Source: Sphingomonas parva (ex Maeng et al. 2020) (GTDB taxonomy: Bacteria; Pseudomonadota; Alphaproteobacteria; Sphingomonadales; Sphingomonadaceae). Taken from it: DNA of 64,000 nt. The translations under genes were made by a program, and so were the position numbers. The notes below the pieces were generated by a model. It made no database searches and was not told where the DNA came from. It worked only from the letters and a program-made list of their open reading frames with translations. Positions 6,262 to 53,233 of this stretch are shown here, in pieces (positions within the stretch are counted from its first letter, which is position 1; each line of letters begins with the position of its first letter). The stretch is from NCBI RefSeq assembly GCF_004564275.1, contig NZ_SPDV01000002.1:186001-250000 (forward strand), given 5' to 3'.

Positions 6262-6957
6262 TCACCCTCGCGCGGGATCGCCGCCTTTCTCGCGCTCGGC
6301 GAGATGGGTTCCGGTGGCGGCGAAATAGACCATCTCGGCGACGTTGGTCGCATGGTCCCCGATCCGCTCGAGGTTCTTGGCCACGAACAGCAGGTGGGTC
6401 GCCGCGGTGATCGACTGCGGGCGCTCCATCATGAAGGTGAGCAAGGTCCGGAAGATGCTGTTGTAGAAATCGTCGACCGCGCGGTCGCGCTCGGACACCT
6501 GCGTCGCCTGCTCCGGGTCACGCCGGATGAACGCCTCGAGCACCATCCGCACCATGTCGCCGGTGATCCGCGCCATCTCGGGAAGCAGCGACAGCGGCTG
6601 GAGATCGGCGCCAGGCTCGATCGCGTGGACCCGCTTGGCGATGTTCTTGGCATAGTCTCCCATCCGCTCGACGACACCGGCGATCTTCAGCGCCGCCACC
6701 ACCTCGCGAAGGTCGTTGGCCATCGGTGCACGCAGCGCGATCACCTGCACCGCCTGGCGCTCGACCTCGGCTTCCAGCGCGTCGAGCCTGGCGTCGTTCT
6801 CGATCACCGCATTGGCGGCGTTCACGTCGCGGTCGATCAGGGCGCGCATCGCGCCGGCGATCGCGGCCTCGGCGAGCCCGCCCATCTCTGCGATGCTGGC
6901 GCGGAGGCGGTCGAGATCCTGGTCGAACGCCTTGATGGTGTGGCCGGTGGTCGGCAT
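6262..6957 (-). CDS. phoU: Phosphate transport system regulator PhoU
   Basis: A 231-residue protein with two tandem PhoU three-helix repeats. Both metal-cluster motifs are intact: ERMGDYAKN in repeat 1 and ERIGDHATN in repeat 2. PhoU links the PstSCAB transporter to the PhoR/PhoB two-component system and keeps it off when phosphate is plentiful. It is the last gene of the phoR-pstSCAB-phoU series, 10 nt after pstB. The start at 6957 has GAGGAG upstream; the longer open frame to 7044 runs into pstB and is not used. Compare the degenerate PhoU at 48536. Confidence 0.95.
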   Translation of the reverse strand: MPTTGHTIKAFDQDLDRLRASIAEMGGLAEAAIAGAMRALIDRDVNAANAVIENDARLDALEAEVERQAVQVIALRAPMANDLREVVAALKIAGVVERMGDYAKNIAKRVHAIEPGADLQPLSLLPEMARITGDMVRMVLEAFIRRDPEQATQVSERDRAVDDFYNSIFRTLLTFMMERPQSITAATHLLFVAKNLERIGDHATNVAEMVYFAATGTHLAEREKGGDPARG

Positions 6958-6967
6958 GTCCCTCTCC

Positions 6968-7774
6968 TCAGCCGTAGCGGCCGGTGATGTAATCCTTGGT
7001 CCTCTCGACCCGCGGATTGGTGAAGATCTCGGAGGTCTCGCCATATTCGACGAGGCTGCCGAGATGGAAGAAAGCGGTCCGCTGGGAGACGCGCGCGGCC
7101 TGCTGCATATTGTGGGTGACGATCACGATCGCGTAGCGGCCGCGCAGCTCGTGGATCAGCTCCTCGATCCTGGCAGTGGCGATCGGATCCAGGGCCGAGC
7201 ACGGCTCGTCCATCAGGATCACCTCCGGATCGACCGCGATCGCCCGGGCGATGCACAGCCGCTGCTGCTGCCCGCCGGAAAGCGCGGTGCCGCTGTCCTG
7301 CAGCCGGTCCTTCACTTCCTCCCACAGGCCGGCGCGCTTCAGCGAGCGCTCGACGATCTCGTCCATCTGGGCGCGGCCGTCCGCCAGGCCGTGGATGCGC
7401 GGCCCGTAGGCGACGTTCTCGTAGATCGACTTCGGGAACGGATTCGGCTTCTGGAACACCATCCCGACCCGGGCGCGCAGCTGCACCACGTCCATCGCCG
7501 GCGCGTAGATGTCCTCGCCGTCGAGCACGATCTGCCCTTCCACCCGGGCATTGGCGATCGTGTCGTTCATCCGGTTGAGCGTGCGCAGGAAGGTCGATTT
7601 GCCGCAGCCGGACGGGCCGATGAAGGCGGTGACATTGTCCTGGCTGATGTCGATCGAGACGGAATCGACCGCCTTCTTGGCGCCGTAGAAGACGCTGACC
7701 TCCCGCGCCGTCATCTTGGCGGCGGCATCGTTGCGGAGCGGCGTCGCCGCGACCGTGTCGGTCATGCTGTTCAT
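6968..7774 (-). CDS. pstB: Phosphate ABC transporter ATP-binding protein PstB
   Basis: A 268-residue ATPase that energises phosphate import by PstS/PstC/PstA. Visible motifs: Walker [10 protein letters not shown], the PstB-typical [10 protein letters not shown] after it, signature [14 protein letters not shown] and Walker [14 protein letters not shown]. The C-terminus ends in the family-typical KDYITGRYG. The start MNSMTDTV at 7774 (or Met 4, at 7765) lies 8 nt after the pstA stop. Family length is about 255-270. Confidence 0.96.
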
Positions 7775-7782
7775 GTCGGAGG

Positions 7783-9000
7783 TCACCAGCGGCGTTCGAA
7801 CTTGTTGCGGAGGAAGATGGCGAGGCCGTTCATCGCCAGAAGGAAGGCGAGGAGGACGATGATCGCCGCCGACGTCTTCTCGACGAAGCCGCGGCTGACC
7901 TCGTCCGACCACAGGAAGATCTGCACGGGCAGCACGCTGGCCGGAGAGGTGATTCCGTCCGGCGGCGTGGCGATGAACGCGCGCATCCCGATCATCAGCA
8001 GCGGCGCCGTCTCGCCCAGCGCCCGCGCCATGCCGATGATCGTGCCGGTGAGGATGCCGGGCAGCGCCAGCGGGAGGACGTGGTGGAAGACGACTTGCAC
8101 CTTGCTCGCGCCGATGCCGAGCGCGGCGTCGCGGATCGATGGCGGCACCGATTTGATCGCATTGCGGCCGGCGATGACGATCACCGGCATCGTCATCAGC
8201 GCCAGGGTGAGGCCGCCGACCAAAGGCGCCGAGCGCGGCAGGTGGAAGGTGTTGAGGAAGACGGCGAGGCCGAGCAGCCCGAAGATGATCGAGGGCACCG
8301 CCGCCAGATTGTTGATCGATACCTCGATCATGTCGGTCCAGCGGTTCCGCGGCGCATATTCCTCGAGATAGACGGCGGAGAGCACGCCAACCGGAAAGGC
8401 GATCGCCAGGGTGACCAGCATGGTCAGCAGCGAGCCCTTGAAGGCGCCCCAGATCCCCACGGCGGCCGGATCGGTCGCGTCGGCCCCGGTCAGGAAGTCC
8501 GTGTTGAACCCGGTGCGGATGGCGTCGTCCTGCTCGAGCCGGGTCACCAGTGCCTCGGCTTCGCCGTCGCCGTCACCCTTCGCCGCACCGTCGATCGCGC
8601 TGGCGGCGGGCAGCCACAGCGCCTTCTTGCGGGCGAGGATCGACGGATCGTCCTCGATCGCTCGCTCGACGCGAAGCCAGGCGGTGTCGGACAGCGCGCG
8701 GGCACCGCCGGGGCCGTATTGGGCCTCGGCAGCCGCCGCGACGGCGGCCTCGATCTCGCCGCCGGCGCTCGCCGCCGACAGGGTGTTCGCCGCGAAGTCG
8801 ATGTCGACCCGTATCTCGGTCTGACGGAAGCCGCCGAGGCCGTTCGACACCATCGTCACCAGCAGGAAGGCCAGGAAGGCGGCGGAGAGCAGGATGGCTC
8901 CCAGCCCGAGCAGGCGGAAGCGGCGCTCGGCGGCGTAGCGGCGGCGGATGCGCCTGCGCATCGCCTCCGCTCTCCAGTCGGTCGGGGCGATCTCACTCAT
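7783..9000 (-). CDS. pstA: Phosphate ABC transporter permease PstA, long form with insert
   Basis: A 405-residue permease. After a basic cytoplasmic start and one helix ([16 protein letters not shown]) comes a soluble insert of about 130 residues, a DUF3333-like region typical of alphaproteobacterial PstA. Then follows the standard five-helix binding-protein-dependent permease domain with the EAA-like loop [21 protein letters not shown]. It forms the membrane channel with PstC. The start overlaps the pstC stop by 8 nt (8993-9000), indicating co-translation. Confidence 0.95.
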
Positions 9001-10381
9001 AGGCTTCGCGATACTTCTTCACGACGCGCAGGGCGACGATGTTGAGCAGCAGGGTGACGACGAACAGCACGAGGCCGAGCGCAAAGGCGGCGAGGGTCTT
9101 GGCGCTGTCGAACTCCTGATCGCCGGTCAGCAGCTGCACGATCTGGGTGGTGACGGTGGTGACGCTGGCGAACGGATTGGCGGTGAGGTTGGCGGCGAGG
9201 CCGGCTGCCATCACCACGATCATCGTCTCGCCGATCGCGCGGCTGACCGCGAGCAGCACGCCACCGACCACGCCCGGGAGGGCCGCGGGAACGATCACTC
9301 TGCGGATCGTCTCCGAGGTGGTGGCGCCCATCGCCAGCGATCCATCGCGCATCGCCTGCGGCACGGCGTTGATCGAATCATCGGCCATCGAGGAGACGAA
9401 CGGGATGATCATGATGCCCATCACCAGGCCCGCCGCGAGCGCGCTCTCGGAGGTGGCGCTGGCGATGCCGATCGCCTTGCCGAAATCGCGCACCGCCGGC
9501 GCCACGGTCAGCGCGGCGAAATAGCCGTAAACCACGGTCGGAACGCCGGCGAGCATCTCGAGCAGGGGCTTCATCCAGCGGCGCACCGCTGGCCTGGCAT
9601 ATTGGGTGAGATAGATGGCGCTCATCAGGCCGAGCGGGATTGCCACCAGCATCGCGATAATCGCGCCGATGAAGATCGTCCCCCAGAACAATGGGATGGC
9701 GCCGAAGCCGCCGGAGGCGCCCGCCTGGTCGGCCCGGATCGCGATCTGCGGGCTCCAGTGGGTGCCGAACAGGAATTCGAGCGGATCGACCAGCGAGAAG
9801 AAACGCGCCGATTCGAACAACAGCGAGGCGATGATGCCCAACGTCGTCAGGATCGCGATGGTCGAGGCGCCGAGCAGCGCCGCCATGACCAATCGCTCCA
9901 CCCTCGTCCGCGCGCGGAAGTGCGGCGAGACGCGGGTGAAGGCAAAGGCGCCGCCGGCGAAGGCGAGCAGCAGGGCGACGACGGCGCCCATCGTGCGGGT
10001 CCGCGACAGGGCGTCGGCATAGGCCGGAGCGAGCGCGTTGCTTTCGGGATGGAAGCCGCCGGGCCGAATGCCCTCGGCGATCTCGCGCGCTTCGCGCAGG
10101 ATGGCGACCCGCTGCATCTCGAACGGCGGTAGGCTCGCGGCTGCCGGTGCCGACATTACCTCGTCCATCACCAGGTTGGCGGAAAGCGGGGTCCATACGG
10201 CGATGAAGATCAGCGCCGGCACCGCGGTCCAAAGCGCTACGTACCAACCGTGATAGCTGGGGAGGGAGTGGGCGCGAGGGGCGCTCCCGCCCCGCCGGAA
10301 GGCCGTCGCCCGCGCGCGCGCCATCAGCCAGCCGAGCGCGGCGAGGGCGACCACGAGCAGGAAGAGCGCGAGCGACGACAT
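8993..10381 (-). CDS. pstC: Phosphate ABC transporter permease PstC, long form
   Basis: A 462-residue permease with two extra N-terminal helices and a loop of about 80 residues before the canonical six-helix domain; this long PstC is usual in alphaproteobacteria. The EAA-like motif reads RDGSLAMGATTSETIRRVIVP. It heterodimerises with PstA to carry phosphate across the inner membrane. It lies 9 nt downstream of pstS and overlaps pstA. Confidence 0.95.
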   Translation of the reverse strand: MSSLALFLLVVALAALGWLMARARATAFRRGGSAPRAHSLPSYHGWYVALWTAVPALIFIAVWTPLSANLVMDEVMSAPAAASLPPFEMQRVAILREAREIAEGIRPGGFHPESNALAPAYADALSRTRTMGAVVALLLAFAGGAFAFTRVSPHFRARTRVERLVMAALLGASTIAILTTLGIIASLLFESARFFSLVDPLEFLFGTHWSPQIAIRADQAGASGGFGAIPLFWGTIFIGAIIAMLVAIPLGLMSAIYLTQYARPAVRRWMKPLLEMLAGVPTVVYGYFAALTVAPAVRDFGKAIGIASATSESALAAGLVMGIMIIPFVSSMADDSINAVPQAMRDGSLAMGATTSETIRRVIVPAALPGVVGGVLLAVSRAIGETMIVVMAAGLAANLTANPFASVTTVTTQIVQLLTGDQEFDSAKTLAAFALGLVLFVVTLLLNIVALRVVKKYREAYE

Positions 10382-10390
10382 GCCGGGTGG

Positions 10391-11437
10391 TTATTTGAGG
10401 CCGTCGGCGCTGAGCGCGGTCAGCTGCGTCGCCGCCTGCACCGCCTTCGCCTGCACGTCGGCGGGCGAAGGGATCAGGCCGCGCCGTTCGAGATAGCCGC
10501 CCTTGCCCCAGGCCTTGCTGTACTCGGCGAGGAACTCCTTCATGCCGGGAACGGCGTTCACATGCTCGCCCTTGGCGTAGACGTAGACCTGCCGCGCGCC
10601 CGGATAGGAGAGGGCGGAGATCGTCTCCGCGGTCGGCGCGATGCCGTTCAGCGGAATGCCGCGCACCTTGTCCGCATTTTCCTCGAGGAACGAGTAGCCG
10701 AGGATGCCGACGGCGCCTGGATCCTGGGTCACCTTCTGGACGAGCAGGTTGTCGTTCTCGCCCGCGTCGACCCAGGCGCCGTCCTCGCGGACCTTGGTGC
10801 ACAGGTCCTTGTGCTTGTCCTTGTCGCTCTCCTTCAGCGCCTTCATCGCCGGATCGCTCTCGCAGCCCTTCTCGAGGATCAGCTCGGCGAAGCTGTCACG
10901 CGTGCCGGAGGTCGACGGCGGCCCGAAGACCCGGATCGGGATCGCCGGCAGCGACGGGTTCACGTCGCGCCACGTCCTTGCGGTGTTCGGCTTACCGAAC
11001 GGATTGGCGGCGACTGCCTTGTAGACGTCGGCCACCGTCAGCTGAAAGCCCGGCGCGTTCCTGGCTTCGATCAGCGCCAGCCCGTCGATCCCGACCGGCA
11101 CCTCGATGATCGTCTTCACGCCGTTCTTCGCGCAATCGTCGAATTCGGACTTCTTGATCCGGCGCGAGGCGTTGGTCATGTCCGGAAAATTGTCGCCGAC
11201 GCCGGCGCAGAAGAGCTTCATTCCGGCGCCGGTCCCTGTCGATTCGACGATCGCGCTCATGCCCGCGTTCGTGCGTTGGAACTGCTCGGCGACGGCGGTG
11301 GTGAACGGGTAGACCGTGGACGAGCCGACGATCTGCAACTGCGCGGTGCCGGAGCCCGGCTCCCCCGATCCGCAGGCGCCGAGCGCGAGCGTCGCGACCG
11401 ACGCGACGAGAATCTGTATCTTCAACGAGGCCTCCAT
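10391..11437 (-). CDS. pstS: Phosphate-binding lipoprotein PstS
   Basis: A 348-residue substrate-binding protein. The N-terminal helix ends in the lipobox LALGAC, so it is probably lipid-anchored rather than free in the periplasm. Phosphate-ligand motifs are clear: QIVGSSTVYP, ESTGTGAGMK and PSTSGTRDSF. Four further cysteines (LFCAGV, FDDCAK, EKGCES, KDLCTK) could form two disulphides. It heads pstSCAB-phoU and is preceded by a three-repeat Pho box (11493-11521), so PhoB-dependent induction under phosphate limitation is expected. Confidence 0.95.
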   Translation of the reverse strand: MEASLKIQILVASVATLALGACGSGEPGSGTAQLQIVGSSTVYPFTTAVAEQFQRTNAGMSAIVESTGTGAGMKLFCAGVGDNFPDMTNASRRIKKSEFDDCAKNGVKTIIEVPVGIDGLALIEARNAPGFQLTVADVYKAVAANPFGKPNTARTWRDVNPSLPAIPIRVFGPPSTSGTRDSFAELILEKGCESDPAMKALKESDKDKHKDLCTKVREDGAWVDAGENDNLLVQKVTQDPGAVGILGYSFLEENADKVRGIPLNGIAPTAETISALSYPGARQVYVYAKGEHVNAVPGMKEFLAEYSKAWGKGGYLERRGLIPSPADVQAKAVQAATQLTALSADGLK

Positions 11438-11492
11438 TCGTGCCCCCCAGCGGGGCCCGAAAGCGTCCCTAGGACCGCTCGGAGATGCTCCT

Positions 11493-11521
11493 GTGACACT
11501 TGCGTGACACTTTCATGACAC
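11493..11521 (-). promoter_or_regulatory. Pho box upstream of pstS
   Basis: Read on the minus strand the site has three 7-mers GTGTCAT, GTGTCAC and GTGTCAC separated by 4-nt spacers (gaaa, gcaa), that is, exact 11-bp periodicity, the geometry of PhoB sites (consensus CTGTCAT repeats). It ends 55 nt upstream of the pstS start and overlaps the last codons of phoR, so pstSCAB can be induced from inside the phoR-pst series. Confidence 0.9.
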
Positions 11522-12724
11522 CGGCTCCGCCGGCGGGCGGGGGAGGAGCACGTGCACCGAGGTGCCGGCCCCCGGGGTGCTGCGGATGTCGAGCCGGCCG
11601 CGGTGCCGCCAGACGATGTGCTTGACGATGGCCAGTCCCAGGCCGGTGCCGCCCTGCGCCCGGCTGCGGCCGGCGTTGACCCGATAGAAGCGCTCGGTGA
11701 GCCTCGGCAGGTGCACCGGATCGATGCCCTCGCCGCGATCGGTCACGGTCATCCGCACCATCTCGCGCGCATCCTCGAACGAGACGGTGATCGGCGCCCC
11801 CTCCTGGCCGTATTTCACGGCGTTGACGATCAGGTTCCGGATCAGCTGGGTCAGCTGGCCGTGATCGCCGGCAACGACGGTGGAATGGCTGCGATTGTCG
11901 ATCTTGAGGCTGTTGCCGCGCTCGGCGAGCACCGCGTCGCAGGCGGCGCGAACCTCCTCCACCACGGGGCAGAGATCGATCGGATCGGTGGGCGGGCGGA
12001 AGCGCTCCGCCTCGATGCGCGACAGCGACATCAGATCGTCGATCAGAACCTGCATCCGCTTGGCTTCGCCATCCATGATGCCCAGGAATCGGGCACGCAG
12101 CTCCGGATCGCCGCCGGCAGCATCGTCGCGCAACGTCTCGACGAAGCCGAGGATCGTGGCGAGCGGGGTGCGCAGCTCGTGGCTCGCGTTGGCGACGAAA
12201 TCGACCCGCATCTTCTCGGCCGCATGGGCCTCGCTGCGATCGGCGAAGCGCACCAGCCGCAGGCCTTCGGGGAGGGTGGCGACCGTCAGCAGCCAGCGGC
12301 GTTCGGCTTCCCCGAGACCGGTGACTTCGATTTCGTCCACTCCGATGCCGTCATGGGCCGCGATGGCCTCGAGCGCGAGCGGGTGGCGGATCGCCAGCCG
12401 CAGGTCCTGGCCCTCGATCGTCTCGCCGAACAGCCGACGTGCCGCCGGATTGGCGGTCAGGATGCGCCCGCCGTCGAGCAGCAGCGTCGGTTCGGGGAGC
12501 GGCGCGACGATTTCCCCGGCGAGGCGGCGACCATCCTCCCCGCCGCCGCGCTGCGCCACCGGCGCTTCCGGAAAGAAGAATGCGTTCCAGCCGACCAGTA
12601 CCGCGATCGCGCCGCCGAGCAGCCCGAGCAGCGCCGCCCATGCTGAGGATGGCATGATCGCCGACCCTGCCACGGCGACGACGGCAATCGCGGCGGCGGC
12701 AAGTGGGCGGAAGGGCAGGCGCAT
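11513..12724 (-). CDS. phoR: Phosphate regulon sensor histidine kinase PhoR
   Basis: A 403-residue kinase: two N-terminal helices (about residues 8-50), a PAS-like region, the HisKA box NASHELRTPLA with the phosphorylated His, then ATPase boxes N (NLIVNAVKYG), G1 (DRGEGID), F (RFYRV) and G2 (GGTGLGLAIVKH). It phosphorylates PhoB when phosphate is low. It lies directly upstream of pstS, 75 nt away, with the Pho box across its 3' end. No phoB is adjacent; the only PhoB-like regulator in the window is at 47854. Confidence 0.93.
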   Translation of the reverse strand: MRLPFRPLAAAAIAVVAVAGSAIMPSSAWAALLGLLGGAIAVLVGWNAFFFPEAPVAQRGGGEDGRRLAGEIVAPLPEPTLLLDGGRILTANPAARRLFGETIEGQDLRLAIRHPLALEAIAAHDGIGVDEIEVTGLGEAERRWLLTVATLPEGLRLVRFADRSEAHAAEKMRVDFVANASHELRTPLATILGFVETLRDDAAGGDPELRARFLGIMDGEAKRMQVLIDDLMSLSRIEAERFRPPTDPIDLCPVVEEVRAACDAVLAERGNSLKIDNRSHSTVVAGDHGQLTQLIRNLIVNAVKYGQEGAPITVSFEDAREMVRMTVTDRGEGIDPVHLPRLTERFYRVNAGRSRAQGGTGLGLAIVKHIVWRHRGRLDIRSTPGAGTSVHVLLPRPPAEPVS

Positions 12725-12817
12725 GCAATGCAGGTAGAGCGTGATGCGGGCCCCGTCACCCCGTGCGGCCCTCTCCCCTTCTCGAGCGTTCCCGCGGCAA
12801 CCGCGCGACGCGGAGGC

Positions 12818-12846
12818 GAGTCACATATCTGTCATCCTCCTGTCTC
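12818..12846 (+). promoter_or_regulatory. Pho box upstream of the OprO/OprP-type porin
   Basis: Three 7-mers on the plus strand, GAGTCAC, CTGTCAT and CTGTCTC, with 4-nt spacers (atat, cctc), giving exact 11-bp spacing. The middle copy equals the enterobacterial Pho box half-site. The site ends 54 nt before the porin ATG (12901), a suitable distance for PhoB activation. Confidence 0.88.
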
Positions 12847-12900
12847 CGATCCGCAATGCGCCCGCGATACCGCCGTCATGAAATCGCCCGGGAGACAGGA

Positions 12901-14397
12901 ATGATCACGAGAACGTTCACCGCAGCCCTGCTCGCCAGCGCGCTCGCCACGCCCGCCTTCGCCCAGAACGGCGGCAGCACGCCCGACGTCGCCGCCGAGC
13001 TCGCCGCGATGCGGGCGCGGATCGCGCAGCTCGAAAGTGAGGTTGCTGCGCTGAAGGCCGGAGGCGCTGCGCCGCCTGCCGTGGCTGCAACGCCGGCGAG
13101 CGGCGCGCCGGTGCAGGCGGCAGCACCGGCCGATGCGCCGAGCTGGAAGGGGGCTCCCGAGTTCGCCGGCGGCAACGGCTTCAGCTTCAAGCCCAAGGGA
13201 CTGGTGCAGTTCGACGCGGGCTATGTCGGCACGCCGGGTCCGGAGCTGAACGGCACCGTCGGCGGGCTCAACTACGGGAATCTGGGCTGGAACACCCGGG
13301 CGCGCCGGCTCGTGCTCGGCGCGCAGGGGAAGCTGCCTGGCGGCTTCGGCTACAATGTCGAGTTCAACTTCGCCCAGGGGCAGATCGATTACGAGGACAT
13401 CGTCCTCACCTGGCAGCGGCCGAAATCGCCTCTGCTCGTCACGATCGGCAATCTCTATCCTTTCTCCAGCCTGGAATCGATGACCAGCTCTCGGCTTACC
13501 AGTTTCCTCGAGCGCGCTTCGCTGACCGATGCCTTCAACTACAATCGCCGTCTCGGCGTCGGCCTCACCTGGGCCGATCCGGAGAACGATCGCTACACGC
13601 TGAGCGCCGGTCTGTTCAGCCAGGAGATCAACAACAGCGCCTTCAACCGGACCGGCTGGCAGGCGAGCGCCCGCGCGACCTTCTCTCCGGAGGTCGGCGA
13701 CACCAGGCTCCACCTCGGCGCCAATTTCCAGCATCGGGTTGCCCAGCAGGATGCGCAGAACGTCCGCTACCGGAGCCGTCCTTTGACTCAGCTGACCGAC
13801 CAGCGCTTCATCGACACCGGCGCCATCGCCGCCGATGGCGACGATATCCTCGGTCTCGAGCTCGCCGCCATCTCCGGCCCGTTCCACTTCGCGGCCGAGG
13901 GTCAGCAGCTGTGGGTGCGCGGCTTCCGGCCCGGCGAGTCCTTCGGCCCCAACAACGGTGTCGAGGGGGGGCTTTTCTATAGCGGCGATCCGCGTTTCCG
14001 CTCCGCTTATGGCGAGATCGGCTACTTCTTCACCGGGGAGAGCCGCGGCTACAAGGGCGGCCGCTGGGACCGCACCAAGGTCAGCAACCCGGTGGACAGG
14101 GGCGGCTGGGGCGCGCTCCAGGCCAATCTGCGGGTCGATTGGGTCGATCTCGGCGATCGGGTCGGCGGGGCATCCCTGCTCGCGCCGGATTTCGTCAACG
14201 GCGGCCGGCAGCTCGGCTACCAGGCCAGTCTGATCTGGAACCCGACCGACTATCTGCGCTTCATGGCTCAATACGGGCGGGCCCATCATCAAGGCGGGCC
14301 GCGGGCCGCCACGGTCGTGCCGGGCTCCGCCGAGCCCGTGAACGAGCGCGGCTTCGACGTCGACAGCGTCGGCGTCCGCGCCCAGGTCGATTTCTGA
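12901..14397 (+). CDS. Phosphate/polyphosphate-selective porin, OprO/OprP family
   Basis: A 498-residue outer-membrane porin. It has a signal peptide (about 1-22, ending AFA before QN), then a short coiled coil rich in Ala/Leu/Glu (about 27-52) as in trimeric porins, a flexible Ala/Pro linker, and a 16-18-strand barrel starting at GFSFKPKGLVQFDAG and ending in the aromatic C-terminal residue of VRAQVDF. The start at 12901 follows GGAGACAGGA. The upstream Pho box and divergent phoR support a role in phosphate uptake across the outer membrane, feeding PstS. Anion preference (phosphate versus polyphosphate) cannot be read from sequence. Confidence 0.92.
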   Translation: MITRTFTAALLASALATPAFAQNGGSTPDVAAELAAMRARIAQLESEVAALKAGGAAPPAVAATPASGAPVQAAAPADAPSWKGAPEFAGGNGFSFKPKGLVQFDAGYVGTPGPELNGTVGGLNYGNLGWNTRARRLVLGAQGKLPGGFGYNVEFNFAQGQIDYEDIVLTWQRPKSPLLVTIGNLYPFSSLESMTSSRLTSFLERASLTDAFNYNRRLGVGLTWADPENDRYTLSAGLFSQEINNSAFNRTGWQASARATFSPEVGDTRLHLGANFQHRVAQQDAQNVRYRSRPLTQLTDQRFIDTGAIAADGDDILGLELAAISGPFHFAAEGQQLWVRGFRPGESFGPNNGVEGGLFYSGDPRFRSAYGEIGYFFTGESRGYKGGRWDRTKVSNPVDRGGWGALQANLRVDWVDLGDRVGGASLLAPDFVNGGRQLGYQASLIWNPTDYLRFMAQYGRAHHQGGPRAATVVPGSAEPVNERGFDVDSVGVRAQVDF

Positions 14398-39371: not shown

Positions 39372-40046
39372 ATGCACGTTCTGCTGATCGAGGATGACGA
39401 GCGGCTGGCGTCGTTCATCGCCAAGGGCCTCGGCGAGGCGGGGCACGTCGTCGAGCATCGCGCCGACGGCAAGGCGGGCCTGATCGAGGCATCGAGCGAG
39501 AGCTACGACGTGATCGTGCTCGATCGCATGCTGCCCGGGATCGATGGCCTCAGGATCCTCCAGACGATCCGGGCGATGGAGGATCAGACGCCGGTGCTGG
39601 TGCTGAGCGCGCTCGGCGAGACCGATGAACGGGTGAAGGGCCTGCGCGCCGGCGCCGACGATTACCTGCCCAAGCCGTTCTCGATGCAGGAGCTGCTGGC
39701 GCGGGTCGAGGTGCTCTCGCGCCGTGGCCCGGCGCGGGCCGAGCCGACCAGGATCGAGGTCGGCGATCTCGTCGTCGATCTTCTCGCCCGCAGCGTCTCG
39801 CGGGCGGGCGCCGCGATCGCGCTGACCGACCGAGAGTTCAGGATCGTCGAATTCCTTGCCCGCCACGCCGGCCGCGTGGTGACCCGGTCGATGCTGCTCG
39901 AACACGTCTGGGACTATCATTTCGATCCCCAGACCAACATCATCGATCAGCATGTCAGCCGGCTTCGCCAGAAGCTGGACCAGGGCTTCGACCAGCCCGC
40001 GATCCAGACCGTGCGGGGCGCCGGCTACATGATCGCGCGCCCGTGA
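39372..40046 (+). CDS. OmpR/QseB-family response regulator
   Basis: A 224-residue regulator: receiver domain with acidic pocket IEDDE and phospho-Asp in IVLDRMLPGIDG, Lys in DYLPKPFS, then a winged-helix domain (ALTDREFRIVEFLARH, RQKLDQ, IQTVRGAGYMI). GGAGG four bases before ATG 39372 decides the start. It overlaps the kinase gene by 4 nt and is divergent from the PepSY group, which it probably controls, as in other PepSY-linked systems. Confidence 0.93.
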   Translation: MHVLLIEDDERLASFIAKGLGEAGHVVEHRADGKAGLIEASSESYDVIVLDRMLPGIDGLRILQTIRAMEDQTPVLVLSALGETDERVKGLRAGADDYLPKPFSMQELLARVEVLSRRGPARAEPTRIEVGDLVVDLLARSVSRAGAAIALTDREFRIVEFLARHAGRVVTRSMLLEHVWDYHFDPQTNIIDQHVSRLRQKLDQGFDQPAIQTVRGAGYMIARP

Positions 40047-41386
40047 AGCTGTTCCGAAGCCTCTCCTTCCGCCTCGCCGTCATCTATGGCGTGCTGTTCA
40101 CCGCGTCGGTCGGCGTGCTTGCCGGCGTCTATTACTGGAGCGCGATCCGGGGCCCGCTCGAGCGTGTCGAAGCCGGCCTGCGCGAGGAAGGGGACAGCCT
40201 CGCCGCCCTTCAGGCGCGTTCCGGCACCGAGGCTCTGGCGGCCGCGCTGGAGAGACGCGCCGCCGCGCCCGCACCGCGGCTGGCCTACCACGCCCTGCTC
40301 GCGCCGGGCGGCCAGACCGTGGTCGCCAACCTGCCGAGCTGGCCGAGCGTGCGCACCGGAAAATGGCTGCGGATCGAGGCCGATGTGTCGCGGGAGGGCA
40401 ATGAGGATGAATATGAGGCGATGGTCCTCGATCAGGTCCTTCCCGACGGCACGCGCCTGCTGATCGGCCGCGATATCGAGGATCTCGAGGAGCTCGAGGA
40501 AGGCATCGCCAACACCGCGGCCTGGCTGCTGCCCGCGCTGGTCCTGCTCTCCATCGTCGGCGGCATGCTGATGAGCCGAGCGATCGGCAAGCGCATCGAA
40601 GCGGTGTCCTCGGCCGCACGCCAGGTGATCGAGGGGGATCTGTCGCAGCGCGTGCCGGTGACCGGCAGCAACGACGATTTCGATACGCTCGCCTTAACCC
40701 TCAACGCGATGCTTGACCGGCTGGAAGCGTCGATCGAGGCGATCCAGCGGGTCTCGGACAGCGTCGCGCACGAGCTTCGAACGCCGCTGTCGCGGCTGCG
40801 CGCGGAGCTCCTCGATCTCGAGGCCGATCGGCCCGAAGAGCGCCTGTCGCGGGCGATCGGGGAAACGGCACGGCTGGGTGCGATCTTCGATTCGGTGCTG
40901 CGCATCTCCCGGATCGAGGCACGCCGCCATGCCGAGCAGGCCGCGCCCGTGGACATCGGGGCGCTGCTCCGCGACGCCGTCGATCTCCACGAGCCCGCCA
41001 CGGAAGGCAAGGCGCTGACGGTCGACACGGCGATCGGCTCCGGCCTCATCGTCTCCGGCGATCGCCATCTGCTGTTCCAGGCGGTCAGCAATCTGCTCGA
41101 CAACGCCGTCAAATACGTGTCCGCCGGGCGCAGGATCTCGGTCTCGGCAACGACTGTCGGCGGCGATGTCCTCCTGACGGTGGCCGACGACGGCGCCGGC
41201 GTACCGGCGGGATTGAGAGACAAGCTCGCCGAGCGCTTCTTCCGCGCCCCGGGGGGCGAGGGGACTCCGGGTTTCGGCCTGGGTCTCGCCTTCGTTGCCG
41301 CCGTCGCCGGTCATCATCGCTCGGAGCTTCGCTTTCTCGACAACGCGCCGGGCCTGCGGGTCGAGTGGCGGCTGCCGCGGGCATAG
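40043..41386 (+). CDS. Sensor histidine kinase
   Basis: A 447-residue kinase with GTG start overlapping the regulator stop. First helix about 11-33, a periplasmic sensor of about 125 residues, second helix about 160-182, HAMP linker, HisKA box [16 protein letters not shown], then N box [11 protein letters not shown]1 VADDGAGVP and G2 [12 protein letters not shown]. The signal is unknown; the PepSY protein encoded opposite is the nearest periplasmic candidate partner. Confidence 0.92.
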
Positions 41387-47853: not shown

Positions 47854-48546
47854 TCAATCGCCGGCGTCCAGGGCGTAGCCGGCAGCGCGGACCGTGCGGA
47901 TCAGCTCCTTGCCGCCATGAGCGTTCAGCGCCAGCCGCAGCCGGCGGATCTGGACGTCGACGGTGCGGATCTCGATCACCGCATCCTGTCCCCAGACGGC
48001 GTCGAGCAGCCGCTCGCGCGAGAACACCCGCCCCTGATGCTCGAGCAGGTGCCGCAGCACCTTGAACTCGGTGGGCCCCAGGCTGATCGGCCCGCCGGAG
48101 CGGCGCACCTTGTAATTGGCCGTGTCGAGCTCGAGGTCGTGGTAGCGCAGGGTCGCGCCGGAAAGGGCAGGGCGCACGCGCCGAAGCACCGCGTTGACGC
48201 GGGCCACCAGCTCCTTGGGGCTGAACGGCTTGGTGACGTAATCGTCTGCTCCGGTCTCGAGACCACGCACCCGATCCGCCTCCTCGCCCCGGGCGGTCAG
48301 CATGATGATCGGCAGATTGGCGGTCGGGGCATCCCGCCGCAGCCTTCGGCAGACCTCCAGGCCGGACAGTTCCTCCAGCATCCAGTCGAGGATCATCACG
48401 TCGGGCTCCAGCTCTTCGGCGAGGATCAGGCCTTCCTCGCCGCTGGCGGTCTGGGTGACGTCGAAATCCTCGCGCTCGAAATGCCACCGGACCAGCTGGG
48501 CGAGCCCGAGGTCGTCTTCCAGCAGCAGCAATTTCTTACGCGGCAT
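47854..48546 (-). CDS. phoB: Phosphate regulon response regulator PhoB
   Basis: A 230-residue OmpR-family regulator closest in pattern to PhoB: LLLEDDLGLAQLVRWHFERE, phospho-Asp in VMILDWMLEELSGLEVC, DYVTKPFSPKELVARV, and a winged helix with LGPTEFKVLRHLLEHQGRVFSRE and RTVRAAGYALD. It would bind the three Pho boxes in this window and be phosphorylated by PhoR (11513). It overlaps the PhoU-like gene by 11 nt and is the third gene of a Pho-box-preceded operon, so it is probably autoinduced. GGAG lies eight bases before the ATG. Confidence 0.9.
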   Translation of the reverse strand: MPRKKLLLLEDDLGLAQLVRWHFEREDFDVTQTASGEEGLILAEELEPDVMILDWMLEELSGLEVCRRLRRDAPTANLPIIMLTARGEEADRVRGLETGADDYVTKPFSPKELVARVNAVLRRVRPALSGATLRYHDLELDTANYKVRRSGGPISLGPTEFKVLRHLLEHQGRVFSRERLLDAVWGQDAVIEIRTVDVQIRRLRLALNAHGGKELIRTVRAAGYALDAGD

Positions 48547-49243
48547 TCGTCTGCTCCGGGAAGGAAAGGGGCGGAAGGGCGGTTGGCGCCAAGGCGGTTC
48601 CGGCCGCGGCGGCGCAAACCTCCGCGGCGATGGCGGCCGAATGTTCGGCGATGCGTGCGAAGCTTCTCGAGATCAGCAGCACGGCCACCGCGCTGGCAGC
48701 AGCGCCACGGTCCAGCCGCATCTCGGCGACGCATTCCTCCAGAAGGGCGAGATGAAGCCGCTCGGAGTCATTGGCCAGGGCGGCAAGCGTCTCCGCAGCT
48801 GAAGCGTCGCCCGTTACGAACGCGTCGATCGCGCATCGCATCCCATCGCGGGCGAGGCGCGCAAGGTTGCCGAACCCCCTGGGGCAGGGCAGCGGCCTCG
48901 TCACCTGCGGGATGGCGGCGACGATGCTCAGCGACTGCGCCGCTGTCCGCTCGAGCAGCGCGACGATCTTGAGGATCGCCATGATCTGCCGGAGATCGCC
49001 CGCGACCGGTGCTCGCAGGGCGAGGACGCACAGCGCGCTCTTCTCGGCCGCCGCTGCGCTGCGCAGAAGCAATGCGATCGCCTCCCGGCACCGGGCCGCG
49101 CGGTCCGGATCGCCCTTGATCACCGCTTCGGCGGCATCCCACGCGGCGGCTTCGGCGAGGCCGCCGATGGCGGCAACGTCGCCGCGCAACGATGCCAGGT
49201 CCTCGTTGAACGCCTTGACGATATGCGTGCCGACACCGCTCAT
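48536..49243 (-). CDS. Degenerate PhoU-family protein
   Basis: A 235-residue PhoU homologue with two three-helix repeats, starting GTHIVKAFNEDLASLRGDV like true PhoU. The metal-cluster motifs are eroded: repeat 1 has ERTAAQSLS where PhoU has ERMGDYAKN, and repeat 2 has ARIAEHSAA where PhoU has ERIGDHATN. Intact PhoU is encoded at 6262, so this copy is likely specialised, perhaps to bind PhoR or PhoB without metal. ATG 49243 is chosen for its GGAGG site; ATG 49345 overlaps the previous stop (ATGA) and would add 34 residues. It overlaps phoB by 11 nt. Confidence 0.87.
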   Translation of the reverse strand: MSGVGTHIVKAFNEDLASLRGDVAAIGGLAEAAAWDAAEAVIKGDPDRAARCREAIALLLRSAAAAEKSALCVLALRAPVAGDLRQIMAILKIVALLERTAAQSLSIVAAIPQVTRPLPCPRGFGNLARLARDGMRCAIDAFVTGDASAAETLAALANDSERLHLALLEECVAEMRLDRGAAASAVAVLLISRSFARIAEHSAAIAAEVCAAAAGTALAPTALPPLSFPEQTNAA

Positions 49244-49341
49244 GCCGCCCTCCGCGAATAGTCCCCCACAGCTTCTGCGCGGATAGGATGACAGCCATGT
49301 GACTGCGGCCGCGGCGGGCGCGAATTCCTGCCGGAAGCCGG

Positions 49342-50469
49342 TCATCGTCCGCCCTCCCGGGCAGGCGCTGCGTCCGCGAGGGGCCGGGCGGGCTGATCCG
49401 GCGGCCGGGAGATCAGGATGGCCTCCTCAGCGGTAATCGTGCCGTCGAGCGCGAGCGCGCGCGCGGTCGAGGCGAGGTTCCGCGTCTCGCGGAAAGCGTG
49501 ACTGGCGATCACCGCCTCGTCGCCACCACGATCGATCAGGAGCTGGATCGGATCGTCGATCACGACGGCTTCGAACAACGGTGTCACACCGCGATAGCCG
49601 CTGTACGCACAGCGCGCGCAACCTTTGGGCCGGTGCAGAATGGTCCCGGGCTCGAAGCCGAGCCGCGCCGTAACGGCCTTGTCGCCCTGGACGGGCTCGG
49701 CGCAGTCGGCGCACAGCCTCGGCGCGAGCCGCTGGCCGATCGCGAGGCGGAGCACGGAGGCGATGTGGAACGGTGCGATACGCATCGCCTTCAGCGCGGC
49801 GATCGCGGCGATCGCGCCGGCGGTGCGGATCGCGCCGAGCACCAGCCGCCCGGCCCGTGCGGCCTCGACGGCCACCGTCGCGGCGGCAGGATCGGCCAGG
49901 CCGTCGATGGCGAGGACGTCCGGATCGAGCGCGAGGAGGTCGCGAAGCACCGCGTCCCCGCATTGCCCGGGTGCCTCGAGCACGGCGCGGATGCCATCGT
50001 CTCTGGCCGCGACGGCATGCTGCAAGGAGGTGGAGAGGCCCGATCCGGCGGTACCGGCAAAGAGCACGAGGCCCCCGGCCCCATCGAGTGCGTCGGCGAG
50101 CACCTGCTCCACGGTCTGCGGCATGCCGAGGCCGGCGAGCAAGTCTTTCCGCCCCGGACGCGGATCGACGCGGATGACGATCCGCGCACCGTCGCCGCTC
50201 GCCGTGCATCGGATCGCCTCCTCCGTGCTGCTGCGCCTTCGGGCCGCAGCGGTGAGAAGCGCGCCTTCCCCAGGGTCGAGCAGCAGATGCTCGATCAGCG
50301 CGCCGCGAACCCGCATCAGCACGGCGACTCCGTCGGCCCGGGGAACGAGGTGGACGTGCGAGGCACCGCGCCTCTGGGCCTGGTCGACGAGCGCCTCGAC
50401 GCTGTCGCGGGCCGGGTTGCTCCTCTCGCGTCGCGTGTCGTCGATCGCCGCTGGTCGCGTTGCTGCCAT
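49342..50469 (-). CDS. GspE/PulE-type protein with lost ATPase residues (pseudo-ATPase)
   Basis: A 375-residue relative of type II secretion/type IV pilus ATPases. It keeps the N2 region (RRGASHVHLVPRADG), the core layout and the zinc site (LCADC ... GCARC). Catalytic motifs are changed: Walker A is GTAGSGLST, with Leu for the Lys; the GEIRD box is DGLAD; and the His box is AIRTAG, with Arg for His. It therefore probably does not hydrolyse ATP in the usual way. No other secretion or pilus gene is near. It is the first gene after a Pho box, before the PhoU-like and phoB genes. Start MAATRP at 50469; the frame is open upstream across the Pho box. Confidence 0.85.
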   Translation of the reverse strand: MAATRPAAIDDTRRERSNPARDSVEALVDQAQRRGASHVHLVPRADGVAVLMRVRGALIEHLLLDPGEGALLTAAARRRSSTEEAIRCTASGDGARIVIRVDPRPGRKDLLAGLGMPQTVEQVLADALDGAGGLVLFAGTAGSGLSTSLQHAVAARDDGIRAVLEAPGQCGDAVLRDLLALDPDVLAIDGLADPAAATVAVEAARAGRLVLGAIRTAGAIAAIAALKAMRIAPFHIASVLRLAIGQRLAPRLCADCAEPVQGDKAVTARLGFEPGTILHRPKGCARCAYSGYRGVTPLFEAVVIDDPIQLLIDRGGDEAVIASHAFRETRNLASTARALALDGTITAEEAILISRPPDQPARPLADAAPAREGGR

Positions 50470-50528
50470 GTCGTGCGTCGCTCCTCGTCTCGCCGAGGAC
50501 GGATGTGGCGCGCCTCCGCGTCGGGCAG

Positions 50529-50557
50529 GTGACGTGCGGATGACGCTTTGATGACAA
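50529..50557 (-). promoter_or_regulatory. Pho box before the GspE-like/PhoU-like/phoB operon
   Basis: On the minus strand the three 6-mers TGTCAT, CGTCAT and CGTCAC follow each other at exact 11-bp spacing, the same geometry as the sites before pstS and the porin. It ends 60 nt before the GspE-like ATG (50469) and starts right after the terminator of the TonB-dependent receptor gene. Confidence 0.82.
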
Positions 50558-50558
50558 A

Positions 50559-50584
50559 GGGGCCGCACCATCCCGTGCGGCCCC
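50559..50584 (-). terminator. Terminator of the TonB-dependent receptor gene
   Basis: Perfect 10-bp stem GGGGCCGCAC / GTGCGGCCCC with a 6-nt loop, 28 nt after the receptor stop; on the minus strand it is followed by CTTTGTC, a short T-rich run. It separates the receptor transcript from the Pho-box operon. Confidence 0.65.
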
Positions 50585-50611
50585 TCGCATCTCCTTACCC
50601 TATGCGGGCGG

Positions 50612-53233
50612 TCAGAAGCTGATCCGCGCCTCCACGCCGAAGGTGCGGGGCGCGTTGAGGTTGCCATAATCGCCGAGCACGCCGCTGTAGCTTGGAATGC
50701 CCGTGATCGAGTCGATCACCGGTGAGGAATTGGCCGCCGAGCGCCGGTAGATGTGCGTCTCGTTCAGCAGGTTGCGCGCCCAAAGCGCCAGCCGGAGCTG
50801 GGCCTCGCCGTCGTTCATCGTGATGTCGGTCAGCGCAAGGCTGCCGTTGACGATGAAGCTCGAGTCCGTCCGCACCGGCTCCGACTGGAAGCTGTACTGC
50901 CGCCCGGCGTAATTCGCGTCGAGGTGCAGGCGGATGTTCGCGTCCGCGAAGCCGGCGGGCACTTCATAGTCGATCGCGCCCGATGCCGCGTGCTTCGGCG
51001 TGAACACCGTATAGACCTGGAACAGGGGGTTGCCCGGCAGGAACGGGTTCGCCGTCGGCGGCACATTGATGTCGGTATAGGCGTAGCTCGCCGAAAGCTG
51101 GAGCTCGTCGATCGGCTGGACCGTCAAATCGGCCTCGAAGCCCTTGATCTTCGAAGTCCCCGGCGCGTTCGCCGTCTCTTCATAATGCCGGTTGAAGTTC
51201 GGGTTCGGCGAGCCGTCGGCGAGGGTGCGCCGGACGTCCACGAAATCGAAGTCGGTCTGCGTGCCCTTGCGATTCATCAGATAGGCGGCGACGTTCAGCC
51301 GCACCCGGCGATCGAGAAACTCGGATTTTGCACCGAGCTCGAATGAATCCACCGATTCGGGGCCGAATGCGCTGAAGGTCTGCGAGCGGCTGTTGGCGCC
51401 GCCGGCGCGGAAGCCGGTCGCATATTTGGCGTAGAGATGGAGATCGCGCGCCGCGTCGAAGGCCAGGGTGACCATCGGATCGATCCGTCCTTCGCGATAG
51501 CGGAAGGGGAAGTTCACCGCGACGTTGTTGAACACGGTCAGCGCGCCGTCGCGCTTGTCATAGGTGTAGCGTGCGCCGGCGGTGACGTGGAGCGCCTCCA
51601 GGCCCGGCGGAGTCCAGGTCGCCTGGCCGAAGACCGCATAGCTCTTGGCCGTCGCCTGGCTGTCGCGCGCGACGAACCAGTCCTCGCGCTGCCATCCCTG
51701 ATTGGACGAGCTGATCGGCGGCAGGACGTCGGGGCTGTTGATCGTGTAGCCTGTGCCGGCCGAATTCCAGCGATTGGTGGTCGGCGTGGCCGCTGTCTCG
51801 CGGACCTTCTCGGTGAAATAATAGAGGCCGAGCACGTAATCGAGCGAGGCGACGCTGCCGACCGCCTGGAATTCCTGGCTCCACTGACGCTGGGAAAGCT
51901 CGGACAGGCTGTAACGGCTGAAGTTGGCGTTCGGGACGAACGTGGTGCGGTGCGCGCCGCCCGAATTGTCGAACTGGTGGGTCTCCACCTCGCGCCAGCC
52001 GGAGATCGAGCGCAGCTCGAGATCGGGGGTAAGCGCGTAGCGGATGGCAGCCGTGAGCCCCTGCGTCTCGTCGACGCTGGGCTGCTGCGGAACGCCGATC
52101 TCGGCCTCCTTCTGGCGTCGGTCGCCGCTCACCACCACCAGCGGCGAGAGCGGTGCGATGCACGGATTGGTGAGCGTGCCGGCGACGACGACATTGCATG
52201 GGGCATTGTTGAAGCGAAGCTGCGTGCCGCTGGTGCCGCCGTAGCTGCCGACGTTGTAGCCATTGGGATTGAAGTTGATCAGCTGGCTGTAGAAAGGCGT
52301 GTTTTCGTCCCGAGCCCTGTCGTACGAAAGGTCGACGGTGAGGCCGTCGACCGGCTGCCAGCGTGCCGCCGCCCGGCCGCCGACGCGGTGATAATAGTTC
52401 CAGCCTTTCTCCCCCTGAAGCGGGTTCTTCGTCGTGGCGCCCTGATGCTGGACGAGGCCGTCCAGCTTGAACGCGAGGTTGGCGAACGCGGGCAGATCGA
52501 TATGCGCTTCGGCATTGTAGCTGCCGAAATTGCCGACGCCGCCCGAGACCCGGCCGCCGAACGCGCCGGTGGGCGCACGCGTGACGATGTTGAGCGCGCC
52601 GCCCTCGGTGTTGCGGCCGAACAAGGTGCCCTGCGGCCCGCGCAGCACCTCGATTCGCTCGATGTCGAACAGCGCGGCGTTGAGGCCCTGCTGGCGACCC
52701 AGATAGATGCCGTCGATATAGACCCCGACGCCCTGGTCGCGGGCAGTCTGGTTCGCGTCGAACGGCACGATGCCGCGAATCCCGACCGTCAGCGCCGATT
52801 GGCGCGATTCGAACGTGGCGACGCGCAATGACGGTACGGCGCCGTCGGTGAGGTCGAGAAGGCTCTGGGCGCGGCGATCCTCGAGCATCTGCTCGCCGAT
52901 CACCGAGATCGCGATCGGCGTGTCCTGGAGGTTGGTCGCACGTTTGGTCGCGGTGACGACGATCTCACCGAGCTGATCGTCCACGCTCCCGATCTCGGCT
53001 GCGGCCACCTCCACCGGCGCCGCTTCGCCGTCATCAGACGTTGCGGCGGCGCGCGAGATCGTGCCGGACAGCTCCTCGGCAGCCTCCTTTGCGCCTTCAG
53101 CGCTCGCGGTCGCGGACCATGACGCCAGCAGCAGGCCCGCTTCCGCGAGCAGAAGGGTGCGCCTGCCGCGGCATGCGCGAGTTGTCGACGCCACGTTGGA
53201 GGTCGAAGCGGAAAACAAGTTGAAGGCAGGCAT
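50612..53233 (-). CDS. TonB-dependent outer-membrane receptor
   Basis: An 873-residue receptor with a long export signal (about 1-45, ending ASA before EG), plug start GEIVVTATKRATNLQDTPIA at about 90, GIRGIVPFD, VGVYIDGIYLGR, IEVLRGPQGTLFGRNTEGGA and a barrel ending in RTFGVEARISF. The plug start with LQDTPIAISV is the siderophore/general FecA-like group common in sphingomonads. It lies just upstream of the Pho operon but has its own terminator, and no convincing Pho box was found before it. Ligand unknown. Confidence 0.94.
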   Translation of the reverse strand: MPAFNLFSASTSNVASTTRACRGRRTLLLAEAGLLLASWSATASAEGAKEAAEELSGTISRAAATSDDGEAAPVEVAAAEIGSVDDQLGEIVVTATKRATNLQDTPIAISVIGEQMLEDRRAQSLLDLTDGAVPSLRVATFESRQSALTVGIRGIVPFDANQTARDQGVGVYIDGIYLGRQQGLNAALFDIERIEVLRGPQGTLFGRNTEGGALNIVTRAPTGAFGGRVSGGVGNFGSYNAEAHIDLPAFANLAFKLDGLVQHQGATTKNPLQGEKGWNYYHRVGGRAAARWQPVDGLTVDLSYDRARDENTPFYSQLINFNPNGYNVGSYGGTSGTQLRFNNAPCNVVVAGTLTNPCIAPLSPLVVVSGDRRQKEAEIGVPQQPSVDETQGLTAAIRYALTPDLELRSISGWREVETHQFDNSGGAHRTTFVPNANFSRYSLSELSQRQWSQEFQAVGSVASLDYVLGLYYFTEKVRETAATPTTNRWNSAGTGYTINSPDVLPPISSSNQGWQREDWFVARDSQATAKSYAVFGQATWTPPGLEALHVTAGARYTYDKRDGALTVFNNVAVNFPFRYREGRIDPMVTLAFDAARDLHLYAKYATGFRAGGANSRSQTFSAFGPESVDSFELGAKSEFLDRRVRLNVAAYLMNRKGTQTDFDFVDVRRTLADGSPNPNFNRHYEETANAPGTSKIKGFEADLTVQPIDELQLSASYAYTDINVPPTANPFLPGNPLFQVYTVFTPKHAASGAIDYEVPAGFADANIRLHLDANYAGRQYSFQSEPVRTDSSFIVNGSLALTDITMNDGEAQLRLALWARNLLNETHIYRRSAANSSPVIDSITGIPSYSGVLGDYGNLNAPRTFGVEARISF

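Follow-up and report, generated by a model that had tools for sequence, protein, structure and literature searches.

Three minus-strand genes at positions 47854 to 50557 of a 64,000-nucleotide stretch of Sphingomonas parva DNA (contig NZ_SPDV01000002.1, positions 186,001 to 250,000; the whole stretch is hereafter called the window) encode, in this order along the strand, a GspE-like pseudo-ATPase, a second PhoU (PhoU2) and a second PhoB (PhoB2). We posit that this locus is the derived remnant of a Pho-controlled type II secretion system (T2SS) locus, from which a non-catalytic GspE and an eroded PhoU2 would survive together with PhoB2, and we put the probability of this reading, made from sequence comparison, at about 0.63. 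We infer the secretion past of the locus from relatives, since the window itself holds no true T2SS gene.

The trio and its Pho-box sites

Pfam and NCBIfam scores, together with an exact three-repeat Pho box, bear out the initial annotation, which had described a Pho-box-preceded GspE-like protein, a PhoU homologue and PhoB. The GspE-like protein (49342..50469, minus strand, start placed at about 50469; 375 amino acids) carries a T2SSE domain (PF00437, 120.9 bits against a curated cut-off of 24.9) and scores 145 bits, below the cut-off of 630.25, with the NCBIfam equivalog for GspE. PhoU2 (48536..49243, minus strand; 235 amino acids) matches PF01895 in two stretches (60.2 bits against a curated cut-off of 23.5) and reaches 93.2 bits, below the cut-off of 130.25, with the equivalog for PhoU. 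PhoB2 (47854..48546, minus strand; 230 amino acids, with receiver and winged-helix domains) passes the PhoB equivalog TIGR02154 at 309.6 bits, above its cut-off of 296.2. The canonical phoR-pstSCAB-phoU1 genes (6262..12724, minus strand), which served for comparison, lie about 35 kb from the trio and have no phoB after them, so that the intact PhoU and Pst transporter are indeed distant, as had been noted with a figure of 36 kb.

A search of the window for three GTCAY units spaced at 11 bp, with at most one mismatch, gave three matches where 0.02 were expected, a number reached in none of 100 shuffles. Two of the matches are exact, one before pstS (11519-11493) and one before the GspE-like gene (50555-50529, within the three 11-bp repeats of Pho box 1 at 50525..50557, minus strand); the third, with one mismatch, precedes a porin gene (12820-12846). 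A second Pho-box-like site, of two repeats, lies 62 bp before PhoU2 (49288..49305, minus strand), and its offset of -62 is identical in two relatives, G249 and G253 (genomes and locus records are cited below by our G and L numbers). The PhoU2 start is most likely 49243 rather than 49345, because the N terminus from 49243, MSGVGTHIVKAF, then aligns with MASSGAHTLKAF of the same two relatives. With this start the GspE-like and PhoU2 genes are separated by 98 bp, and the second site falls inside the gap. Of the overlapping or adjacent gene order first described, the 11-bp overlap of PhoU2 and PhoB2 thus stands, whereas the junction of the GspE-like gene with PhoU2 does not; a single operon of three overlapping genes is discarded, given the fit of the PhoU start to 49243 and the intervening Pho-box-like site. 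The same site leaves the claim of one transcript unsupported, although the trio may be co-transcribed. Pattern scans for promoters and terminators found neither kind.

Pho-box-like sites recur at the relatives' genes. With a simple consensus (maximum score 21) applied to the 180 bp upstream, L203 being left unscored, 15 of 16 PhoU2/PhoB2 units scored at least 14, and all four GspE-like genes at least 15, with sites that start 40-88 bp upstream; among 4000 random background positions, mostly in coding DNA, scores of at least 14 and 15 occurred in 2.9% and 0.55%, respectively. For comparison, pstS scored 18, five receptor genes 12-14, phoR 12 and the window genome's other PhoB gene (PhoB1) 11. 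The two eroded members of the trio are accordingly open genes behind Pho-box-like sites, which agrees with the earlier view that they have been kept.

As a separate observation, the phosphate-selective porin gene (PF07396, open reading frame 12763-14397), divergent from phoR, has a Pho box at its start (12818-12861, plus strand).

The GspE-like pseudo-ATPase

As the initial annotation had noticed, the catalytic motifs of the GspE-like protein are altered throughout. In alignments the canonical Walker A sequence GPTGSGKTT has become GTAGSGLST (50029..50055, minus strand), Walker B has changed from VGEIRDRET to IDGLADPAA (49882..49908, minus strand), the His box from STVHTNDA to GAIRTAGA, and the Asp box is gone. 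The alignment to GspE begins after the N1 domain, the part by which GspE docks to GspL, and N1 is missing from the protein altogether. What is kept is a zinc-type module of four cysteines (C253, C256, C284 and C287; 49609..49713, minus strand). On the proposed reading, the protein cannot act as a T2SS motor.

Proteins of this kind are scarce. In 249 genomes of the family, with up to seven candidates scored per genome and the number of GspE-likes hence a lower bound, the window protein matched ATPases at 30-47% identity, mostly in frames of 480 amino acids or more, and two short pieces at contig ends at 58-59%. Within the genus, where all candidates were scored, short GspE-likes occur in 3 of 26 genomes: the window genome, G255 (388 amino acids) and G260 (407 amino acids). 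One clear case, in G091 (408 amino acids), comes from another genus. A profile built from these four sequences and run against 397 family genomes ranked G091 and the window protein at the top and revealed no further clear GspE-like among the matches listed (up to four candidates per genome, to E 3.4e-101), again a lower bound. Short GspE frames in G067, G244 and G203 were rejected as T2SS genes that are broken or truncated at a contig end, and candidates in G124 and G387 were set aside because they too lie at contig ends, so that only G091 stood.

The other three proteins are 38-40% identical to the window protein; all four lack N1 and share the four cysteines without exception, and their motor-motif losses differ, G260 retaining Walker A and G255 the GE of Walker B. 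In a tree computed with LG+G4 the four occupy one side of a 100/99 branch opposite 46 GspE sequences. An earlier tree, in which three GspE-likes formed a 97/95 clade among T2SS GspE of the genus and four other long-branch ATPases fell elsewhere, had absurd branch lengths and was redone without nine rows (duplicates, cut frames and those four ATPases).

The pattern of conservation is inverted relative to GspE. Among eight canonical GspE proteins conservation peaks in the motor core (pairwise identity 88.2%, against 83.8% in N2, 64.2% in the arm and zinc part and 66.2% in the C terminus), whereas among the four GspE-likes the zinc and C-terminal parts are the most alike (51.5% in the arm and zinc part and 48.5% in the C terminus, against 37.5% in the motor core and 26.4% in N2). 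Together with the open frames (no stop codon in any of the four genes, where random sequence of equal base make-up would carry 6-7 each), this inversion argues that the genes were kept and that their task changed.

The main competitor of such a changed task is decay: the GspE-like protein and PhoU2 would be leftovers heading to loss, with no current role. It would account for the different ways in which the motor motifs have decayed in each protein, for their rare and patchy occurrence in and beyond the genus, and for the absence of GspK from three of the four host genomes. Four frames that stay open, four invariant cysteines and a Pho-box-like site before every one of the genes speak against it, and we regard a relic without function as rather improbable.

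PhoU2, PhoB2 and the secretion loci of relatives

The metal motifs ERMGD and ERIGD of PhoU1 are replaced by ERTAA and ARIAE in the window PhoU2, confirming the loss of metal ligands that had been proposed for it. Both ERxGD motifs are intact in all 26 PhoU1 rows, from which seven PhoU2 rows are separated by a 96/96 branch. Among these seven, the E...D pairs are both kept in G053, G129 and G229, one is kept in G249 and G253, and none in the window genome and G260; erosion is thus graded over the seven genomes, with the window PhoU2 at its extreme.

The window genome has two PhoB proteins, 70% identical: the trio copy and one on contig 21. We placed them in a tree of 44 rows, made up of 43 of the 45 matches from the 26 genomes of the genus and one Sphingomonadaceae record (a 41% match of G258 and the second copy of G265 were left out), which splits into PhoB1 (27 rows) and PhoB2 (17 rows) with support 97/90. 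The contig-21 copy falls in PhoB1. The trio copy falls in PhoB2, so that its assignment as an ordinary PhoB1 is rejected, and the initial view of it as the pst-linked master regulator is not upheld. By coordinates, 22 of the 27 PhoB1 genes stand directly behind a PhoU gene, and where longer DNA was covered (G053, G229, G260) pst genes are there as well; the window genome's PhoB1 is isolated and has no Pho-box-like site. In G255, as a side observation, a PhoB1-type gene is closely followed by genes for a DUF47/PhoU_div protein and a PHO4 phosphate transporter (L132, 7652-10108), and the window has at 39400-41300 (plus strand) another pair of an OmpR-type regulator and a kinase, with 38% and 35% identity to PhoB and PhoR, respectively.

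True T2SS genes adjoin PhoB2 in 10 of 17 rows, or 13 if the GspE-likes of the window, G255 and G260 are counted. In nine rows gspC is directly behind PhoB2 (L098, L099, L129, L130, L131, L133, L135, L136 and L203), in seven of which the order PhoB2, gspC, lipoprotein, TonB receptor is continuous (7/17), and L134 has gspN to gspD beside it; the gspC label comes from three scanned proteins, whose T2SSC matches all lie below the curated cut-off and two of which also match PDZ, with the others assigned by tblastn to those three. The four remaining rows (G229, G249, G253 and G264, the last a piece of 4.9 kb) have no T2SS gene or GspE-like in the DNA covered. T2SS genes were found at none of the 27 PhoB1 loci (26 rows, with L071 and L227 sharing a single gene), 20 of which cover only about 1.5 kb either side of phoU; the 27th PhoB1 row, in G260, has the GspE-like gene of that genome at a distance of about 1.6 kb.

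GspK is present in 18 of the 26 genus genomes and was not found in the window genome (100% complete), G260 or G091. The window genome also yielded no canonical GspE, and its only two GspF-type matches, side by side on contig 22, are probably TadB and TadC of a Tad system; by the three markers GspE, GspK and GspF, no T2SS genes are detected in it. The loss is less sure in G260, because a cut GspF-type piece lies at a contig end (contig 50, bases 4-225) besides a similar pair. G255 has a T2SS (GspK and canonical GspE) alongside its GspE-like.

A second explanation, that of the initial annotation, is a dedicated control device in which a GspE-like scaffold holds PhoU2 and thereby sets PhoR/PhoB2 signalling. 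It draws on the adjacency of the genes, their Pho-box-like sites and the constraint on non-catalytic parts, and on the fact that the genomes with both a GspE-like and PhoU2, the window genome and G260, are the two of seven in which both PhoU2 metal motifs are lost. The survey of neighbourhoods in relatives did not yield a conserved three-gene unit: no close relative with the trio turned up, only in the window were the genes seen to be contiguous, G260 has them in a different order over about 6 kb, and G255, G249 and G253 have part of them. G255 combines a GspE-like and PhoB2 with a single PhoU, which is pst-linked; the GspE-like of G091 has no Pho gene match in the surrounding 19.9 kb; and five genomes (G249, G253, G053, G129 and G229) have PhoU2-PhoB2 without a GspE-like. 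We consider a device of this kind distinctly unlikely. Least probable of all is a GspE-like that serves as the non-catalytic subunit beside another secretion or pilus ATPase, for example of the Tad-type pilus that the genome appears to encode: other families have inactive ATPase subunits that co-assemble, and the contig-22 pair is at hand, but the GspE-likes group with T2SS GspE in trees (subject to long branches) and have lost N1, and in the window the Gsp queries gave nothing else, the Tad-like matches being on another contig.

The derivation from a Pho-controlled T2SS locus has its own difficulties, which weigh against it together. Gsp queries of the 64-kb window found no T2SS gene besides the GspE-like at the trio, and PhoU2-PhoB2 of G249, G253 and G229 likewise lacks an adjoining T2SS gene. 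The lipoprotein of the PhoB2-gspC loci has matches in 15 of the 26 genomes of the genus but none in the window genome (nor in G255 or G260), and the window receptor does not match the receptor of the gspC-lipoprotein loci at E 1e-6. The placement of the GspE-likes inside the GspE of the genus is poorly supported (53/38 to 73/76), and their very long branches mean that the grouping may in part reflect long-branch attraction. Finally, phoB2 of G255, with a score of 11, has no Pho-box-like site, the sole exception among the 16 units, and since the background was mostly coding, intergenic chance rates may exceed the 2.9% and 0.55% given above.

The gene directly upstream of the trio encodes a TonB-dependent receptor (50612..53233, minus strand; Pfam). 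At its 3' end a hairpin with a 12-bp stem (50557..50586, minus strand; -41.7 kcal/mol, z -3.9, equalled by 1 of 200 shuffles in RNA folding), followed by a short T run only and not listed as a terminator by the pattern scan, is perhaps a transcript end. By tblastn the receptor shares 50-62% identity with receptors of G255, G260, G262 and others, including the ones beside the GspE-likes of G255 and G260 (50-53%). About 0.9 kb separates the GspE-like of G091 from a TonB receptor and a lipoprotein, which show 50% and 53% identity to their counterparts in the PhoB2-gspC loci. A window-type receptor stands beside gspC and PhoB2 only in G262, L183 and L203. As a marker of the locus the receptor was dropped: around the best 80 of 496 relatives, on genome contigs, few Pst/PhoU or T2SS genes adjoin it, PhoB2 with T2SS genes occurs only in L183 and L203, GspD-E-F without PhoB2 in L170 and L206, and weak Gsp matches in L207 and L219, while many of these receptors stand beside other OmpR-type regulators (29-42% identity to PhoB).

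Two further features of these neighbourhoods were seen in passing. A motif of roughly GTNACA, followed by CCCTAG or CCTAAC, was noticed by eye before TonB receptor genes and is unlike a full Pho box; it lies at 53339-53307 (minus strand) in the window and, in L101, L126 and L127, some 100 bp upstream of where the receptor gene starts. A CYTH-CHAD gene, so labelled from Pfam on the copy in L101 (7358-8821), occurs no more than about 8 kb from PhoB2 or pst genes there and in L096, L097, L126, L129, L131, L134, L135 and L183, with Pho-box-like sites upstream in L101 (7277, plus strand) and L126 (5719, plus strand); the G255 copy (L126, 5806-7228) consists of two match pieces that meet near 6548, possibly through a frameshift or an assembly fault, and no tblastn match exists in the 64-kb window.

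Proposed working and known systems

In the genus, PhoB2, in some genomes with PhoU2 before it, stands mostly beside T2SS genes with a Pho-box-like site of its own, and the locus often continues with gspC and then genes for a lipoprotein and a TonB receptor. In the window lineage the T2SS would have been lost, while PhoB2, PhoU2 and a descendant of the T2SS GspE stayed. At low phosphate, PhoR may phosphorylate PhoB1, PhoB2 or both; phosphorylated PhoB would then bind Pho box 1, raising the GspE-like protein, and the second site, raising PhoU2-PhoB2 in a positive loop. PhoU2, stripped of its metal motifs, would tune PhoR or PhoB2 instead of copying PhoU1. The GspE-like protein might serve in signalling, assist a different machine or be a slowly fading relic; we lean toward a non-catalytic docking role, most likely exerted through its zinc and C-terminal parts. 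A more specific proposal, to which we give a low probability, is that in one sphingomonad lineage a T2SS motor, released from the T2SS and from ATP hydrolysis, has become a non-motor protein for signalling or docking that is induced by phosphate stress and under selection on these parts, and forms with the metal-free PhoU2 and the second PhoB a separate Pho branch.

A precedent for phosphate control of secretion exists in Caulobacter, where, according to the accessible parts of two reports, the T2SS belongs to the PhoB regulon (PMC11208175) and a TonB receptor and the phosphate-starvation lipoprotein ElpS are encoded just upstream of the T2SS, the lipoprotein-T2SS order being given also for Sphingomonas alaskensis (PMC2996285). 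The seven PhoB2 loci with gspC, lipoprotein and TonB receptor in a row resemble this Caulobacter crescentus locus as it appears in those parts, the likeness of the relatives' lipoprotein to ElpS being one of position only. The window genome differs from it in having no T2SS found, no such lipoprotein and a receptor of another kind, and PhoB2 and PhoU2 lie inside the locus here, a feature not mentioned for Caulobacter in the available portions of these papers. Compared with GspE of the EpsE type (PDB 4pht, 1p9r), the window protein shares the family and the zinc-type cysteine module and lacks N1, the four motor motifs and any T2SS partners that we could find. Second PhoU proteins besides the canonical one are known from Staphylococcus and mycobacteria; as far as the accessible parts of those sources go, the second PhoU here is unlike them in being paired with a second PhoB and in having lost both E(D)xxxD motifs. 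The succession of phoU and then phoB recalls the pst-phoU-phoB genes of G053, G229 and G260 and, in the portion of the source available, of Caulobacter, although the trio pair consists of diverged paralogues away from pst with a Pho-box-like site of their own. Among the titles and abstract openings listed by literature searches from which subscription papers were mostly absent, none concerned a PhoB paralogue within a T2SS locus or a pseudo-GspE.

The locus suggests that a phosphate-stress circuit has found new use for old secretion parts or merely retained them. As natural examples it would offer a secretion ATPase that lost its motor while selection shifted to the zinc module, and a PhoU-PhoB pair that was duplicated and is linked with a secretion locus. 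Should the PhoB2 branch be confirmed, the feeding of two PhoBs by one phosphate sensor and the role of a PhoU free of metal motifs would become directly testable.

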